Source: a virus
Reading direction: 5' to 3' (one strand)
IMG/VR virus record: IMGVR_UViG_3300027972_000062
Coordinates: 1-21,279 of that record
Length of the DNA stretch: 21,279 bases
The notes beneath the pieces were generated by a model. That model was not told the origin of the DNA. It ran no database searches and saw nothing but the letters and a program-made list of their open reading frames with translations. Below are positions 3,031-18,492 of this stretch, piece by piece. The position numbers and the translations under genes are program-made. Positions within the stretch are counted from its first letter, which is position 1. Each line of letters opens with the position of its first letter.

Positions 3031-3807
3031 CTAGTCCACGACTGCTAATCTGCTTGGGACAAACGTCCGATCCGCCTTGATGATGCAACATCCGATTAAC
3101 TCAGCGACTTGGGGGACGACCGCGTTCCCTAAGCATCTAAGTCGGTCCACCCGAGAGGGAATCCCATCAGCCATTCCACGAAGTTCGGGTTCAGGTGTTC
3201 CGGTGCGATCTGGCACGGCGTCTGCGAACCATTCCGCCTTCGCCAGTCGGTCTGGAAACGCACCATGAAAGATAGAGTGTTGTTCGGTGCCGTCCCCGGC
3301 CTCAAGTGGGAATCGAACACCGTTGGAGTGAGCCACAATGTACACTCGTTCCCGTGTATGTGGCGCACCCAAAGCGCACGCCGGTATGCTTTCCCATTCG
3401 ACATCGTACCCGAGCGCGGCCAAGTCCCGCAGAACTCGACTGAAGAACCGTCCAGACTCAGAGGAGAGCAGTCCTGGTACGTTCTCTGCCAGCACCCATC
3501 GGGGCCGCACTTCGCAAACAATGCGGGCGAACTCTCCCCACAAGTCCCGCTCATCACCCGAGGCTTGACGCTTGCCAGCGAGACTGTGCGGCTGACACGG
3601 GAACCCTCCGCAGATGAGGTCAACGGGAACAAGGTTTGCGCTTCCGCACTCTCGCACGTCACCATAGCGCGGAACCTCCGGCCAATGCTTCGCAAGCACC
3701 TTGACGCAATACGGGTCAATCTCGACTTGCCACGCGCATTCCATCCCCGCACGTTCTAGGCCAAGGTCGATCCCCCCGATGCCAGCGAATAGGCTCCCAA
3801 ACGTCAC
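3031..3807 (-). CDS. DNA (cytosine-5-)-methyltransferase
   Basis: The 258-residue product is a compact C5-cytosine methyltransferase that transfers a methyl group from S-adenosylmethionine to cytosine in DNA. Visible motifs in order are FAGIGGIDLGLERAG (motif I), EIDPYC (II), GGFPCQ with the catalytic Cys (IV), AENVPGLLS (VI), HTRERVYIVA (VIII) and RLRCLGNAVVPQVAELIG (X). The spacing between VIII and X is short, so the target-recognition domain is small and specificity cannot be read. The start is GTG 3807, one base after the TGA of the upstream membrane gene. No restriction partner is visible nearby, so an orphan phage methylase for self-protection is the simplest reading. A second meaningful frame overlaps it (3129-3752). 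Confidence 0.93.
   Translation of the reverse strand: MTFGSLFAGIGGIDLGLERAGMECAWQVEIDPYCVKVLAKHWPEVPRYGDVRECGSANLVPVDLICGGFPCQPHSLAGKRQASGDERDLWGEFARIVCEVRPRWVLAENVPGLLSSESGRFFSRVLRDLAALGYDVEWESIPACALGAPHTRERVYIVAHSNGVRFPLEAGDGTEQHSIFHGAFPDRLAKAEWFADAVPDRTGTPEPELRGMADGIPSRVDRLRCLGNAVVPQVAELIGCCIIKADRTFVPSRLAVVD
3129..3752 (-). other. Overlapping out-of-frame ORF inside the methyltransferase gene, with family-like motifs
   Basis: In the +1 frame relative to the methyltransferase a 207-codon frame begins at ATG 3752. It contains CWQRTYQDCSPLSLDGSS, GTWPRSGTMSNGKAYRR, LWLTPT, NTLSFMVR and LNPNFVEWLMGFPLGWTDL. From memory these strings occur in this order in many annotated phage and plasmid proteins found as separate proteins or as tails of C5 methyltransferases. 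There is no strong ribosome site before 3752. It may be a shadow of the methyltransferase, a relic of overprinting, or an expressed overlapping product. The main frame is intact, so this is not a simple frameshift. Confidence 0.3.
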
Positions 3808-12429: not shown

Positions 12430-14178
12430 TCATCCGGGGTACTCCTCGCGGGTTCCGAGCCCGAACTTCGTCCTGCCATCCGCTCCTGTTGCTAGTTTCC
12501 TCACGAGCCCATCTTCAAGCAATCGTTTCATAGGTGTACGAAGTAGGTGCTCGGGGTGACCGATTGCAACGGATAGCTGCTGATAGGTCATCTTCCCGTC
12601 TTGGCGTAGCGCGTCGATGATGCGATCCTTGACCGGCGATCGGTCGTCAGCCGCCATGATCGTGTCGGCGCTGTCTGGTTCAACCCTGGTGAAGTTCCCA
12701 CCGAATGTGAACTTGAACCCGATCGGCGGCTCACGGCGACCCTCGTTCGCCTTGGCGTGGTAGAGCCCGACACGGGCAACGTCTGCGCCCTCGTCCTGGT
12801 CGCGGCGTACCTCCCAGATCGAACGTGGTGCCGCTCCAAAGAACTGCGAGCCGAAGATCGACGTCTTGCCCGTCGTGTTCTTGGCCTGATGAGCGATGAC
12901 GAGCGACGTGACGTTTAGCGAGCGGAGTGCCTTGTAGAAGTCGTTCGCCGGTTGCGGGTTGTTCAGATCGCCGCCCGCCGCGAGACCGAGTGAATCGATG
13001 ATGATGAAGTCATGGCCATTGCGGCGTATCAGTTCCTTCACCTGTTCCGAGTCTTGGACGAGTGGAAGAGCGCAGCGACGATAGCTCGCCTTGGCCGGTT
13101 GTAGGTTCATACCGCGCCTTAGCTTGGCCCAGCGCCGCGCGAAGCTCCCGACGCTCGACTCCCAGTCTAGGTACAGCGGTGCCTGGATCTTGTGGCGCAC
13201 CTCAAGACGGTAATTCTCCTGGCCGGTCATGAGGATGTAGGTAAGCAACGCCGCTAGATATGACTTGTTGACGCCGATGTCGCCATAGATGACGGTCGGC
13301 TCGTTGCGCAACAGGATCGGGAAGAGGAGGTACTCAAGTTCCTTGGGGTCGACTTCGCTGTCCACCTGTTGAACGGGCTCGCCAGTTTCAACGTACTCGA
13401 TGACGCTCTCGGAGAGTTGTTCAAGGATCGTCGCCCACATTCCATCCGGTAGCGCGGCGACCTTCGACAGCCGATTCTCCCACGTTGCCCGTGTCTGTAC
13501 CGCTGCGAAGTTGAGTTGCCCGGAGGTGAGACGGGCGGGGATGCCAGGCATTGTCCCGGTGAATCTGACGAAGCCAGTCACCGAGCCGTCCGACTTGTGC
13601 GACTGGAGCTTGGTCGCCATGGCGCGGATACCAGGCGGGCACCAGTCGGCGCGGAGCGTCGTACCGTCAGCCTCGATCACCGGAGCGAACACGGCCACGC
13701 CGCCCATCGCTGCCTGTAACCGTGTCCCGTCGAGGATCTTCTGGGCTTCCGTGGCTACGTCGCGGATGTCGCGTCCCTCGTCATGGGCAAGCTCTTCGAT
13801 GCGAGCTGTCGCCGACATGAGCGCCCGGCGAGTAGCCTTGTCCTTGACGATCGCAACGTAGTGATCGAACCCGGCATCGGTAATCTGCTTCGTAGCGAGG
13901 TCGCCGAGGCGCACCCGTCCGCCTGCATCCTCCGTCTTGCCCATCGACTCCAGGCGGTTGGCGACGGCGATCACGTCGGGCAACGTTCCGTCATTCACTA
14001 ATGAACGTATCGCCTCGAAGACGACGCTATTCTTGACAGTGAGGAAATCGGTCGAACCGAGCTTGCCTACGTTCTCAGCCGCTACTTCAGGCCAGCCGAG
14101 CAAGCAACCTAGAACGGCCTCCTCGGCTTCAAGATTCGACGGTAAGGCTTGGACTGTAGCTCTTGGTTTGCCTGCCAT
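12430..14178 (-). CDS. Replicative helicase: DnaB-N domain fused to RepA-like ATPase and winged helix
   Basis: The 582-residue product is the probable replication helicase. Residues 10-110 form a DnaB N-terminal helical domain (PSNLEAEEAVLGCLLG ... DVIAVANRLE). A middle region (about 160-285) has beta strands and TILEQLSESVIEYVETGEPV. An AAA/RecA-type core follows: Walker A GDIGVNKS (299-306), LYLDWESS (335-342), Walker B FIIIDSLG (391-398) and VIAHQAKNTTG (427-437). The C-terminal 513-575 looks like a winged helix (VKDRIIDALRQDGKMTYQQL). In Walker A the Gly before Lys is Asn. The start is ATG 14178 with GGAGG upstream. The leader is structured, and the gene ends at the GTAAC array. Confidence 0.88.
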   Translation of the reverse strand: MAGKPRATVQALPSNLEAEEAVLGCLLGWPEVAAENVGKLGSTDFLTVKNSVVFEAIRSLVNDGTLPDVIAVANRLESMGKTEDAGGRVRLGDLATKQITDAGFDHYVAIVKDKATRRALMSATARIEELAHDEGRDIRDVATEAQKILDGTRLQAAMGGVAVFAPVIEADGTTLRADWCPPGIRAMATKLQSHKSDGSVTGFVRFTGTMPGIPARLTSGQLNFAAVQTRATWENRLSKVAALPDGMWATILEQLSESVIEYVETGEPVQQVDSEVDPKELEYLLFPILLRNEPTVIYGDIGVNKSYLAALLTYILMTGQENYRLEVRHKIQAPLYLDWESSVGSFARRWAKLRRGMNLQPAKASYRRCALPLVQDSEQVKELIRRNGHDFIIIDSLGLAAGGDLNNPQPANDFYKALRSLNVTSLVIAHQAKNTTGKTSIFGSQFFGAAPRSIWEVRRDQDEGADVARVGLYHAKANEGRREPPIGFKFTFGGNFTRVEPDSADTIMAADDRSPVKDRIIDALRQDGKMTYQQLSVAIGHPEHLLRTPMKRLLEDGLVRKLATGADGRTKFGLGTREEYPG

Positions 14179-14272: not shown

Positions 14273-16486
14273 TCACAAGCGCCCCACCGGAGTGAATCTC
14301 TCCTTGATGTCTGCGATCTTCCCTTTGTAGGCGACGATGATCTTCTGTTCTCGCTTGGGGAACTTCCGCATGTTCAGTGTCTTCTTTGCGTGTGCCAGCC
14401 GCGTGAACTCGGCCTCTAGGTACACGATCTTATTGTAGACCTGTAGGCCATTATCCTTGAGAAACAGTTCAGTCTCGGATTCCGAACAATGGAAGGCCCC
14501 ATGCTTATCCCGACTGTCGCCAGTCATCACAACGAAGAAGCATCCCTCGTTGAGATGGTCAATCGCAATGCGATACCCGGCGAACAAAGCGTCACGGAAC
14601 TTCTCATACGTGTCTAGGGAATTGATCTCTCCGACTGGTGGTTCACCGTCGTAATCCACGTACCTCTCAACGCGATAGTACGGCGGGCACGTGAAGACAA
14701 GATCGAACATCCCGTTGGGTTCGTAGGTTGCGCTGTCGCTCTTGACCCATTGAACGCCGGGGAACTCGCTGCATAAAGCGTTGTTCGCGTCGCACTGATT
14801 CTGGCGTAGCTCGCTCGCGACGTACTCGTAACCGTAGCTTCCGGCAACGAACCCAAACTGCACACCGCCCCCGAATGGATTGTAGATGCGCCTGCCTTCC
14901 TTTGGTGTGAAGAATCGAAGGATGACCTCACACGCCACGGGGTCAAGCACTGAAGCATTGCCGTTGTGCGCATGACCTGTCACAACGTTTGCGAACCCGT
15001 TCTCGCCTTGCCAACAGCCCTCACGCGTTGCGAAGAGGGGGTTTGCGATCCCTCGGGCCTCACCTACTTCAGATATCTGTTTGTTCCACTCCTTCTTCAG
15101 CTTGACCCACTCCCCCTTCACTGAGTCCCACACGTTGGTCATCGTTATGTGTGCGAGCAACTTCATGCGGACAGTCGACAACTCCCCATGTACCATGTAG
15201 CAGAACCCCGACATAGCAAGGTAGGTAGTGAATCCCAGACTCTCAAACAGCGCAGGAGTCTCGAACTTGCTCTTGGGGTTTGTCGTCATCAGGGCGGGGT
15301 ATCCGTTGACGTTGCGCTTGATGACCTCAAGGGCCATCTGCTTGTACAGGTCGTCACTGTACTTCTCTGGGACGATGACCGATTGCAGCAGACAGAATTC
15401 CTTGACGGTATCATTGTTCTGGAAGGTGAAGAACCCCGCGAACGCATCGTTGATCTTCAGGATGATCGCAGAATGGATCTGCATGTTCTTGCGAGCCGCC
15501 CGGTGCGCTATGCCGTCTTCGAGTGCAAGTTTCGCAACAGCCTCCTCGTAACCGGACCCGATGACGCTAGGGACATAGACGAAATCTACAACGTCCTCGA
15601 ACATGCTCTCTTCTATCACTGTCCGTTCCTCCTTTGTCGCCGCTCCATTGGTCGGCGCTTGTTCGACCCCGCACTGATCGGGGCATGTACTACACGTTCC
15701 CAAGTAGACAGATGGAATATGCAGGGAAACGATCTTGCCGCCTCCGATTGATTCAGCTCTCCTAGCAACGATGATGTCTCTGTTTACGGCGTGTGGATTC
15801 GACTTGCGCGGACGAAGCGGGTTGTCGATCACTGGTACAAGAGACAGGAGATAGTCCTGCTTATCGTTGCATCGTCGTGCCCACTCGGAGGTTCCGTAGT
15901 TGCACGTTACCACTCGATTGATGCTCCGCACCCCGGCGGCACGGAGGCGCTCAAGTTGTGCGACGCGATGGGCCGTCTCTTCGTCAGTGTCTAATCCGCT
16001 TGTAGAAGTATTAACGACCGCCTTTAGCCAGCGGAGATCGTCAATCTGCTCGTCGGTCAAAGGAACCCAATGCTTCGTAATGACCACAGGGATCTTCTTC
16101 GTCCACCGAAGCGCACGGAGCACCGCAATCGTGTGTTTCCAGTCGTGACACGGGTCGCCGAATGTACCTACCCTATACCACTTAGCCGGTAGGGTCAGCA
16201 TCCTCCTGACGATGGTGTCTCGGTGTTCCCTGCCGCAGAACTGCCTACTGACGCTAGTAGCAAAGTCAATCCCTAGCCTGATAGCCGTCCTTGCCGCGTA
16301 ACACTCCCCGTAGCACCCGCCTTGCGGATATGCTTCCATCCCCATTGTGCAACCCTTCACAGTATCAACATCTAGGACGCCTTTCCTGTTCTCGTTTGCA
16401 GTCAGGATCGGCAGATAGAGCCTTGGGATTGCCGCAATGACTTCGCCGCCGAACAGCGATAGCCGCACCGTCTTTCCGCATTGCAT
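14273..16486 (-). CDS. Radical-SAM-like / GNAT-like / DNA-methylase-like fusion, predicted DNA modification enzyme
   Basis: This 737-residue product has three parts (numbering from the GTG at 16498, four residues longer). Residues 50-280 look radical-SAM-like, related to phage Gp37/Gp68 (DUF5131). C50, C62 and C66 lie in GC-TMG ... GGCYGECYAAR, with VGTFGDPCHDW, VVITKHWVPLTDEQI and a second cluster GTCSTCPDQCG. Residues 300-440 look GNAT-like (AIILKINDAFAGFFTFQ, LLQSVIVPEKYSDDLYKQMA, ALFESLGF). Residues 490-730 are methylase-like: motif I YNPFGGGVQFGFVA, catalytic-type FTCPPYY, and MTGDSRDKHGAFH. This suggests a base-modifying enzyme acting on phage DNA. GC content seems lower than in its neighbours. 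ATG 16486 (GGTGG ahead) is preferred, but GTG 16495 or 16498 is possible. Confidence 0.85.
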   Translation of the reverse strand: MQCGKTVRLSLFGGEVIAAIPRLYLPILTANENRKGVLDVDTVKGCTMGMEAYPQGGCYGECYAARTAIRLGIDFATSVSRQFCGREHRDTIVRRMLTLPAKWYRVGTFGDPCHDWKHTIAVLRALRWTKKIPVVITKHWVPLTDEQIDDLRWLKAVVNTSTSGLDTDEETAHRVAQLERLRAAGVRSINRVVTCNYGTSEWARRCNDKQDYLLSLVPVIDNPLRPRKSNPHAVNRDIIVARRAESIGGGKIVSLHIPSVYLGTCSTCPDQCGVEQAPTNGAATKEERTVIEESMFEDVVDFVYVPSVIGSGYEEAVAKLALEDGIAHRAARKNMQIHSAIILKINDAFAGFFTFQNNDTVKEFCLLQSVIVPEKYSDDLYKQMALEVIKRNVNGYPALMTTNPKSKFETPALFESLGFTTYLAMSGFCYMVHGELSTVRMKLLAHITMTNVWDSVKGEWVKLKKEWNKQISEVGEARGIANPLFATREGCWQGENGFANVVTGHAHNGNASVLDPVACEVILRFFTPKEGRRIYNPFGGGVQFGFVAGSYGYEYVASELRQNQCDANNALCSEFPGVQWVKSDSATYEPNGMFDLVFTCPPYYRVERYVDYDGEPPVGEINSLDTYEKFRDALFAGYRIAIDHLNEGCFFVVMTGDSRDKHGAFHCSESETELFLKDNGLQVYNKIVYLEAEFTRLAHAKKTLNMRKFPKREQKIIVAYKGKIADIKERFTPVGRL

Positions 16487-16507
16487 GTTATCCACCACGC
16501 GCTCACG

Positions 16508-17332
16508 TTACGCCTCGACTTGACGAACCTCGCCGATCGGCAGACGCCCGTCAGGCGGGGATGTCGGCGCGCCCGGCGTCACGTCGATGAACGGGTCCGG
16601 CTGGCCGAGCTTCGCGTCCTCGACCTCGAACGCTCGTGCGAGCAAGGCGTCTTCGGCAGGCGTGAGCGGCATCAGCTTCGTCGCTGCACGGACGATCGTC
16701 TTCATGACCATCGCGGAGTAGTCTGTGCGCCACGGGCCGTCGTCGGCCTTCTTCGACTTCATGCGTAGCCGCTCGATCTCTGCCTTGTTGAGAACGAGGT
16801 GACGCTGCGCCACGGCGCGACCGTCGATCACGTCCCACCACACGGCGTATCCGGCCTTGAGTTCCTGCCGGTTGTCGAAGCCGATGACGCCGCTGTACTT
16901 CGGCTCGTGGTCGAGGATCGTCTGCAGCCCGCGCCGGTAGGTGAACGGATCGTCCTTGTGAACCAGCCCAACCTCGAAGCCAGCAAGCTTCTTCGACCTG
17001 TAGCAGATGTCGAGCAATCCGCGATAGCCCGCGACGAATGTTGCATCCCGCGACCCCTGCTTGTTGCGGAACGATAGCACGTGTCCGAGGTTCATCAGGC
17101 CCGTGGGCAATAGCTTCAACGCAGCGGCGTCCTCAAGCGCCGTGCGGAAGCTGTCGACGGTACACTGCTTGAGGTCGGGATTGCGGCGCACGCACGCTTC
17201 GGCCATCGCGAGCAGACGCCCTGCGGCCGCTTCGTCACCCTCGCCGTAGATCTGCGTGAGCTTCGGCTTCCACACGCGGAGCAGATCCCCGAGGTTCCGA
17301 TCGCTGTCGATCACTGCCGGTCTGACTTCCAT
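16508..17332 (-). CDS. recT: RecT-family single-strand annealing protein
   Basis: The 274-residue product shows the RecT pattern in order. These are CVRRNPDLKQCTVDSFRTAL, EDAAALKLLPTGLMNLGHVL, SFRNKQGSRDATFVAGYRGL, DICYRSKKLAGFEVGLVHKD, and GPWRTDYSAMVMKTIVRAAT with KLMPLTP. RecT anneals complementary single strands and works with an exonuclease in phage recombination and replication of ends. Here the preceding gene encodes a Cas4/RecB-like nuclease whose TGA overlaps this ATG (TGATG), the expected pairing. The start is ATG 17332 with GGAGG 4 bases ahead. The C-terminal tail is Pro/Asp-rich and could bind a single-strand-binding protein. Confidence 0.92.
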   Translation of the reverse strand: MEVRPAVIDSDRNLGDLLRVWKPKLTQIYGEGDEAAAGRLLAMAEACVRRNPDLKQCTVDSFRTALEDAAALKLLPTGLMNLGHVLSFRNKQGSRDATFVAGYRGLLDICYRSKKLAGFEVGLVHKDDPFTYRRGLQTILDHEPKYSGVIGFDNRQELKAGYAVWWDVIDGRAVAQRHLVLNKAEIERLRMKSKKADDGPWRTDYSAMVMKTIVRAATKLMPLTPAEDALLARAFEVEDAKLGQPDPFIDVTPGAPTSPPDGRLPIGEVRQVEA

Positions 17333-18492
17333 CACGCCTCCTTGACTTCGACGTACTCGACCGCAGGCCCGCGAGTCATGGCCCCGGTCTGCTCTAGCTC
17401 GCTGAAGACGTCTTGTTTGAGTTGCGCCTTCTCACCACGTTCGGCTTTCGACGCAACGAAGGATTCTACGTCCGATTTGCCGAGCGAGACCATGGCGGCG
17501 AGTTCGTCGTCGGTGATCTGCCCGAACCGCTCTCGGAGGTACGGGAGTACCCGCTCCGGCTTGAGGCTCGGTCGCCCCGCACGGCTAACGAGCTTGATAT
17601 GCTGCCCGCTCGGCATTGGGATGTCGCCGCCCATCGACTTGACGGCGTCTGTCGCCATGCGCAAGTGCTCCTCGCATAGCTGCTTGAGGAATCGCGCCTG
17701 GACGATCGATCGCCCGAAGCCTGCCGGATCTACTAGCTCGCCGTTGAAGGGCACTAGATCGGCCCTACGCTCGCTCGTGAGGACTTCCACGGCGGCGAGC
17801 ATGAGGTCGCGGCGTCCGGGGCAGGCAGCGACACGCAGGCAGTAGCGGCACGCATCGCCGGGGGTGAACGTCTTGCCGTCCCAGCGCAGTTCCCCATCAA
17901 GCTCGAATCCGAACATCAAGGCGTCAACGGCTCGATGCGACATCACCGTTGCTTCTGCTGACCGCAGCCATGCCAGGATCACGACGACTCGAACGGGTGT
18001 ATGTCTGATGAAGTGCTGCAACCCGAGCGCCGCGTATCCCTGCATCTGCCGAATGTACCGCGAGTCTTCGTCCTTCTCTCCCGTCTTCCAGTCAATCACG
18101 TAGACGGTAGGCTCGCCGCCTTCGAGCGAAACGAAGTCGAGCACGTCAGGCCGTCCGGTCAGTTCGACGCCCTCCGCGATCTTCGTCCCGAGCTGAACTT
18201 CAACAAGCGGGAACTCGCTTAGGAACTTGCGATACTCGCGGAGGAACTTCATGCCCTGGTAGCCGAGAATCCTCACGTCCTTCTCATCCGCGCCGTATGC
18301 TTCCGCGTAGGGTTTCACGTCGGGAAGCTCTCGATAGTGATTCTTGACGATGTCGGCCATGAGGGCGTGAACGGCGATACCAGTCTTCGTCGCCTCGGTT
18401 GGCTCATGGTCAATCAGTACCGCGTCGTTCTCGGTGTGCGCGCTTGCGGGGCACGCGAAGAGACGATCAAGCGAACTGCAACGGATCTTCAC
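17332..18492 (-). CDS. PD-(D/E)XK nuclease, Cas4/RecB-like, with probable Fe-S cluster
   Basis: The 386-residue product is a predicted exonuclease partner of RecT. The nuclease core shows GIAVHALMADIV (His 42), ELTGRPDVLDF (Asp 116), VYVIDWKTGE (Asp 134, Lys 136) and RQMQGYAALGL (Gln 149, Tyr 153). Cysteines are arranged as one near the N-terminus (LFACPAS, Cys 14) and three after the core (DACRYCLRVAACPGRR; Cys 215, 218, 224), the Cas4/AddB-type iron-sulfur layout. The C-terminal half is helical and unassigned. The start is GTG 18492 with GGGAGG 5 bases upstream and a GTGA overlap; an open frame to 18654 overlaps another gene and is excluded. Confidence 0.88.
   Translation of the reverse strand: MKIRCSSLDRLFACPASAHTENDAVLIDHEPTEATKTGIAVHALMADIVKNHYRELPDVKPYAEAYGADEKDVRILGYQGMKFLREYRKFLSEFPLVEVQLGTKIAEGVELTGRPDVLDFVSLEGGEPTVYVIDWKTGEKDEDSRYIRQMQGYAALGLQHFIRHTPVRVVVILAWLRSAEATVMSHRAVDALMFGFELDGELRWDGKTFTPGDACRYCLRVAACPGRRDLMLAAVEVLTSERRADLVPFNGELVDPAGFGRSIVQARFLKQLCEEHLRMATDAVKSMGGDIPMPSGQHIKLVSRAGRPSLKPERVLPYLRERFGQITDDELAAMVSLGKSDVESFVASKAERGEKAQLKQDVFSELEQTGAMTRGPAVEYVEVKEA

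Follow-up and report, generated by a model that had tools for sequence, protein, structure and literature searches.

A phage gene family joining radical-SAM, GNAT and methyltransferase folds as a candidate for DNA-base hypermodification

The fusion gene and its three predicted folds

The window, the whole stretch of DNA that was analyzed, is an IMG/VR virus record of 21,279 bases, and the gene under study is a long frame within its replication and recombination module (Table 1). An exonuclease gene and the gene for a RecT-like protein lie upstream of it and the gene for a DnaB-like helicase downstream, which agrees with the early-gene placement proposed in an earlier note on this DNA. PHROG annotation assigned terminase, portal and C5-methyltransferase genes to other parts of the window. 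The note had placed the gene at 14273-16486; an open frame is indeed there, but on the minus strand, and the right edge given was that of the in-frame ATG at codon 5, whereas the frame continues to the GTG. The sequence GGTGG lies just 5' of the ATG, so that either codon could be the start. The motifs GTFGDP, VVITKHW, NPFGGG, TCPPYY and CYGECYA were all found in the translation.

Table 1. Positions of the fusion gene, its predicted domains and motifs, and its immediate neighbors in the window.
Feature	Position	Strand	Basis or remark
DnaB-like helicase, downstream neighbor	12430..14178	-	phrog_19, 2e-20
Whole fusion gene	14273..16498	-	741 codons and a stop codon, from GTG at 16498; ATG at 16486 is the other possible start
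Amino-methyltransferase domain, residues 444-741	14276..15169	-	phrog_12517, 6e-37; phrog_498, 2e-31; Foldseek aTrm11, CamA
Methyltransferase motif IV, F-T-C604-P-P-Y-Y	14675..14695	-	C604-P-P-Y-Y invariant in 75/75
Methyltransferase motif I, Y-N540-P-F-G-G-G	14864..14884	-	invariant in 75/75
GNAT-fold domain, residues 300-440	15179..15601	-	AlphaFold2 topology and Foldseek
Position of acetyl-CoA pyrophosphate loop, residues 376-388	15335..15373	-	no glycine-rich R/QxxGxG/A motif
Disordered linker joining the radical-SAM domain to the GNAT domain, residues 284-298	15605..15649	-	pLDDT <50; relatives split into two genes here
Non-canonical radical-SAM domain, residues 26-282	15653..16423	-	AlphaFold2, Foldseek and hhalign
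Second Cys motif, C269-X2-C272-X3-C276-G	15671..15694	-	possible auxiliary Fe-S or Zn site
GTFGDP motif, residues 111-116	16151..16168	-	lines up with GGMTD in the canonical radical-SAM partners
Presumed [4Fe-4S]/SAM cluster loop, C50-X11-C62-X3-C66-Y-A	16301..16351	-	conserved Cys
RecT-like annealing protein, upstream neighbor	16508..17335	-	phrog_148, 3e-32; stop codon 9 bases from the GTG start

The GC content of the fusion gene (0.547; GC3 0.675) was lower than that of nearby genes (0.59-0.64), as the note had stated. Its further suggestion of a recent acquisition was unsupported, as GC evidence is weak and the gene belongs to a large and diverse phage family; moreover, the GC3 of the window's C5-methyltransferase gene was even lower. 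Relatives with 57-79% identity retain all three domains at full length, and in every domain pN is much lower than pS. The C5-cytosine methyltransferase gene in this phage is at window positions 3031-3807, minus strand (phrog_363, 3e-83).

No Pfam or NCBIfam model scored above cut-off against the window protein, and the sequence libraries (Pfam, NCBIfam, PHROG) recognized its C-terminal third only. The AlphaFold2 model of the whole protein, based on a 115-sequence alignment, had a mean pLDDT of 87.5, and Foldseek matches to radical-SAM enzymes, GCN5 and methyltransferases bore out the three folds that had been proposed. Sequence searches of the PDB with profiles of the radical-SAM, GNAT and methyltransferase parts and of the canonical radical-SAM partner described below returned no informative relative.

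Modeled alone, the N-terminal domain (pLDDT 94.5, pTM 0.90) was predicted to form a partial (b/a)6 TIM-type barrel of the radical-SAM type. Its best 26 Foldseek matches in the PDB were all radical-SAM enzymes, with 3cb8 at the top (2.1e-4), and the matches included PFL-activating enzyme (PFL-AE, 2e-4), EpeE, QueE, MgmA, lipoyl and biotin synthases and HydE. The unusual Cys spacing that the note had remarked on was confirmed: the three presumed cluster ligands C50, C62 and C66, which are conserved in 74/76, 74/75 and 74/74 members, respectively, are arranged as CX11CX3C in the window protein and as CX9-12CX3C in 73 of 74 relatives. As the canonical CX3CX2C motif is not in the window domain, we have filed it only as a non-canonical radical-SAM-fold domain. 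The second Cys motif (CX2CX3CG) is present in 73 of 74 relatives and absent from the canonical partner family.

Profile comparisons indicated that the N-terminal domain is homologous to canonical radical-SAM proteins. An hhalign comparison of the window's family with 17 partner sequences bearing CX3CX2C gave an E value of 2.1e-6 and a probability of 89% over 199 columns (against two canonical proteins only, the probability was 9.8%). In addition, an HMM of the non-canonical family picked up canonical radical-SAM proteins at 1.6e-5, and 8 of 74 non-canonical members matched phrog_13321, the PHROG of the canonical partners.

The middle domain has a predicted topology of b1-a1-a2-b2-b3-b4-a3-b5-a4-b6-b7, in which all GNAT strands and helices are present, and by fold and strand order it belongs to the GNAT superfamily. 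Its Foldseek match was human GCN5 (8h6c; E 8.1e-5, TMt 0.65). Column counts verified the reported lack of an acetyl-CoA loop, as the R/QxxGxG/A loop after strand b4 was absent in 75/75 members and glycine reached no more than 5% at any of positions 376-388. A set of residues in this domain was invariant or nearly so (R336, K337, N338, Q340, H342, S343, T358, N362, E367, C369, Q372, S373, Y385, T405, E413 and Y434), and the conservation of these polar residues suggests a cleft that is active or binds a ligand.

The C-terminal domain was assigned to the phage amino-methyltransferases on its matches to phrog_12517 and phrog_498, which are phage DNA methyltransferases of the ParB-MTase family, and on its motifs I and IV. 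The best Foldseek match was the tRNA methyltransferase aTrm11, and the DNA adenine methyltransferase CamA was matched also. The METHYLTRANSFERASE domain kept motif I (YNPFGGG) and motif IV (CPPYY) in all 75 members, so the sequences do not bear out the possibility, raised in the note, that the methylase motifs are inactive in all homologues. The protein shares motif I, an E-L/I-R acidic motif and the CPPY motif IV with phage ParB-MTase fusions such as Listeria B054 gp77, Enterococcus phiFL3A gp36 and a protein of Pseudomonas ZRG1. It differs from them in its fused or adjacent radical-SAM domain, and in having the invariant N540 where those relatives, most of which have CPPY, have the D of motif I. 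No N-terminal ParB domain was found in the window protein with Pfam, and the GNAT domain occupies its place.

Fused and split loci

After the removal of near-duplicates the survey comprised 98 GNAT-MTase loci, and the exclusion of three that were cut at a contig end left 95 to be counted. A radical-SAM partner was present in 94 of these: 41 loci encoded a fused radical-SAM-GNAT-MTase protein and 53 had a radical-SAM gene directly beside the GNAT-MTase gene, with one locus having neither. Among the split loci the radical-SAM gene was upstream in 16 and downstream in the others (24 non-canonical and 13 canonical). Since about one third of the loci were found via radical-SAM queries only, the unbiased figure is that from the GNAT query alone, in which 63 of 64 loci had a radical-SAM domain or neighbor. 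The search recovered both the domain order described in the note and its split versions. The three-part fusion itself was real and recurrent but not obligate, as splits in both gene orders were as common, and the existence of 41 distinct fused copies ruled out an assembly artifact as its source and lies far outside what chance would produce. Together, about a hundred related phages have the same parts as fused or neighboring genes, and in both forms the radical-SAM and GNAT-MTase parts are paired recurrently and, for the most part, obligately.

The split genes mostly overlap, although the overlaps were measured on stop-to-stop frames and are upper limits. GNAT is always fused to the methyltransferase but not always to the radical-SAM domain. 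The exception to the pairing (L123/L125) is a GNAT-MTase with conserved motifs on a 40.8-kb contig, and no match to a radical-SAM gene was found anywhere in the contig of L125. The radical-SAM part also occurs in a few contigs without a GNAT-MTase. The pairing is near-obligate, yet these two kinds of contig indicate that neither the radical-SAM nor the GNAT-MTase part is absolutely dependent on the other. One further gene (L069:3978-5768) has a radical-SAM-like domain fused behind about 320 residues that had no Pfam, PHROG or credible NCBIfam match.

On the GNAT-MTase tree, a quick tree in which 29 of 92 branches are weak, at least 23 changes of arrangement were required, against a mean of 47 for shuffled labels; this is nonetheless many in absolute terms. 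For the canonical partners, at least 6 changes were required on branches with good support, and non-canonical and canonical radical-SAM partners have been exchanged repeatedly. From these repeated changes and exchanges, it appears that selection of partners preserves the radical-SAM function itself.

A search of 50,697 records of named phages gave no relative of the radical-SAM or GNAT parts, and BFVD contained one GNAT-MTase, of 464 residues. Five bacterial genome assemblies were also matched by the GNAT query (Spirochaetes, two of Desulfobacterales type, Smithella and Massilibacteroides), which may represent prophages or stray phage contigs. Most of these bacterial groups are known as anaerobes, a lifestyle that would be compatible with the oxygen sensitivity of radical-SAM chemistry.

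Canonical partners and known systems compared

At L140 and L157 a canonical radical-SAM gene (PF04055) overlaps the end of the GNAT-MTase gene, and a search with this partner yielded more such pairs. The CX3CX2C motif was invariant in the 17-sequence alignment of the canonical partners, and their nearest NCBIfam relatives were the PA0069 and Rv2578c families, with spore photoproduct lyase, whose substrate is thymine in DNA, matched more weakly. This group (phrog_13321) has a barrel homologous to that of the window domain and occupies the same slot by the GNAT-MTase in 13 loci. It is distinguished from the window domain by having CX3CX2C rather than CX11CX3C and by lacking the C-terminal CX2CX3C.

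On contigs without a GNAT-MTase, relatives of the canonical partners adjoined or were near C5-methyltransferases, N6/N4-methyltransferases, ParB-MTases and ParB. Canonical spore-photoproduct-lyase-like genes by methyltransferases or ParB were at L220, L227, L236, L246, L252, L253, L244 and L247. Genes for TET-associated glycosyltransferases (TAGT) were observed near the non-canonical radical-SAM gene at L064:2164-3021, L070:231-1121, L039:2424-3599 and L073:6947-7816; the call was based on PF20691 matches in L064 and L039, with which the genes of L070 and L073 cluster. The methyltransferase and ParB neighbors of canonical relatives, together with these base glycosyltransferases beside non-canonical members, support the view that the radical-SAM part has, by itself, a role in modifying DNA. 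Neighbor clustering revealed no conserved third partner gene beyond replication, recombination and nuclease genes.

Two relationships suggested in the note were not upheld. A Cys-rich GC..CYA start is typical of the Gp37/Gp68 radical-SAM-like family and is seen in the window protein as well; however, the Pfam model of that family (DUF5131, PF07505) matched 1 of 74 relatives, at 8e-4, and the window protein not at all. Mu Mom, an adenine modifier, is likewise a phage GNAT fold without a classical CoA loop that acts in DNA modification, but it is a stand-alone protein, and no specific relationship to the window GNAT was detectable by profile comparison (hhalign probabilities of 0.1-0.2% against two Mom alignments, one Mu-like and one diverse). 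In phages of Arthrobacter and Microbacterium, Mom homologues directly adjoin ParB-like genes (L267:1-238 and two further matches).

Elp3, the catalytic subunit of Elongator, resembles the window protein in its expanded Cys spacing and in having a radical-SAM and then a GNAT domain in one chain. Elp3 produces carboxymethyl-uridine (cm5U) via acetate from acetyl-CoA (PMC13315578). In contrast, the window family has no CoA loop, has a DNA-type methyltransferase attached and has its GNAT domain welded to that methyltransferase rather than to the radical-SAM domain. The curated Elp3 model of NCBIfam did not match the window protein. We therefore rejected membership of the Elp3 family, as the layout alone is shared and the acetyl-CoA-binding loop of a KAT is missing; this absence also speaks against the donor route of Elp3.

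A precedent for non-methyl chemistry is CmoX, a carboxymethyltransferase of Synechococcus phage S-B43. This phage DNA-methyltransferase homologue performs the first step of a hypermodification, forming carboxymethylcytosine with a SAM-derived group (PMC12783734). It differs from the window protein in being of the C5-methyltransferase family and using carboxy-SAM, and it is not reported there to have a radical-SAM or GNAT domain.

A candidate hypermodification enzyme

We lean towards reading the fusion protein as a phage enzyme for DNA-base hypermodification whose methyltransferase and radical steps share one target; the reaction, what it yields and even DNA as the substrate are inferred. In favor are the three predicted folds, each with conserved active-site residues, the homology of the N-terminal domain to canonical radical-SAM proteins and the presence of a radical-SAM partner in 94 of 95 loci. 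DNA is suggested as the target by the placement of the methyltransferase in phage ParB-MTase families annotated as DNA methyltransferase, by the resemblance of the canonical partners to the PA0069/Rv2578c group and, more weakly, to spore photoproduct lyase, by the methyltransferase and ParB genes beside canonical relatives and by the TAGT genes near some non-canonical members. Points against this reading are the non-canonical Cys spacing, the contigs that have one of the two partners without the other, and the top fold match of the methyltransferase to aTrm11, which makes RNA a possible target.

If this reading is correct, the methyltransferase domain would bind phage DNA, flip a base out and either place a small SAM-derived group on its exocyclic amino group or otherwise prime the base. 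CmoX is a precedent for the installation of a non-methyl group (PMC12783734). The radical-SAM domain would hold a [4Fe-4S] cluster via C50, C62 and C66 and would use a second SAM to generate a 5'-deoxyadenosyl radical, which could activate a carbon of the flipped base, of the group already installed or of some small donor. The GNAT domain, which lacks the CoA loop and keeps an invariant cleft (R336-K337-N338-x-Q340-x-H342-S343, E367, C369, Q372-S373, Y385, T405, E413 and Y434), would bind or transfer the joined donor, which would not be a classical CoA thioester. The resulting bulky base would protect the phage DNA against nucleases of the host. We put forward more tentatively, as a genuine possibility, that methyltransferase, radical-SAM and CoA-independent GNAT chemistry converge on one flipped-out base to give a base new to nature, which would make the protein a DNA counterpart of the Elp3 layout and an undescribed enzyme class.

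The conserved catalytic motifs, the ParB-MTases annotated as DNA methyltransferase that are the nearest sequence relatives and the one contig with a GNAT-MTase and no radical SAM would all be expected of an ordinary protective N6-adenine/N4-cytosine DNA methyltransferase, in which the GNAT domain replaces ParB in DNA binding or specificity and the radical-SAM domain works separately, without contributing to a common product. We consider this unlikely, as a radical-SAM domain or neighbor is retained in 63 of 64 independently found loci despite repeated exchange of partners, and as the invariant polar cleft suggests that the GNAT domain is more than a scaffold. Somewhat less probable again is an Elp3-like modifier of phage or host tRNA, in which the radical-SAM and GNAT domains would make a carboxymethyl-type mark and the methyltransferase would finish it. 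The radical-SAM-then-GNAT layout of the cm5U-forming Elp3 (PMC13315578) and the tRNA methyltransferase as top PDB fold match are what such a modifier predicts; yet Elp3 binds acetyl-CoA, for which none of the 75 members has the loop, no credible NCBIfam match was obtained for the window protein or for four other non-canonical members, GNAT is constantly fused to the methyltransferase but only in some loci to radical SAM, and the methyltransferase's sequence relatives are DNA-type enzymes with ParB.

We give the lowest rating, a slim one, to a substrate that is not polymeric DNA or RNA and is instead a nucleotide precursor, a small molecule or a protein. Small molecules are frequent substrates of radical-SAM and GNAT enzymes, and nucleotide-level modifiers do occur in replication and recombination modules such as the one in which the gene is located, but the fused methyltransferase comes from a DNA-acting phage family and no nucleotide-biosynthesis gene recurred by the pair in neighbor clustering.

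Known phage DNA hypermodification combines separate enzymes. This family unites radical-SAM, GNAT and methyltransferase folds in a single chain or in two closely coupled genes, and we found no description of the combination in the open-licence literature, which omits most subscription papers. These features point to what may be an undescribed route of chemically decorating phage DNA. As the radical-SAM partner has been kept through repeated fusions, splits and replacements, the family offers a compact system for asking if DNA bases can be built directly by radical chemistry, and with the split versions each part can be studied alone. The family would also bear on how a GNAT fold functions without acetyl-CoA, a question for Mom-type enzymes.

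Several genes beside ParB-MTase relatives were also observed. In two phages that are not related, Pseudomonas phage ZRG1 (L160:8950-9339) and Croceibacter phage P2559S (L258:3803-4123), the ParB-MTase gene is overlapped at its end by a gene annotated as S-adenosylmethionine decarboxylase, which hints that decarboxylated SAM may be the donor for some members of the ParB-MTase family. In Mycobacterium phage AlanGrant (L256:1406-2275), a ParB-MTase gene is overlapped at its end by one annotated as nucleoside deaminase/tryptophan synthase beta superfamily, and in Pam4 another methyltransferase relative lies under a gene annotated as a PLP-dependent enzyme.
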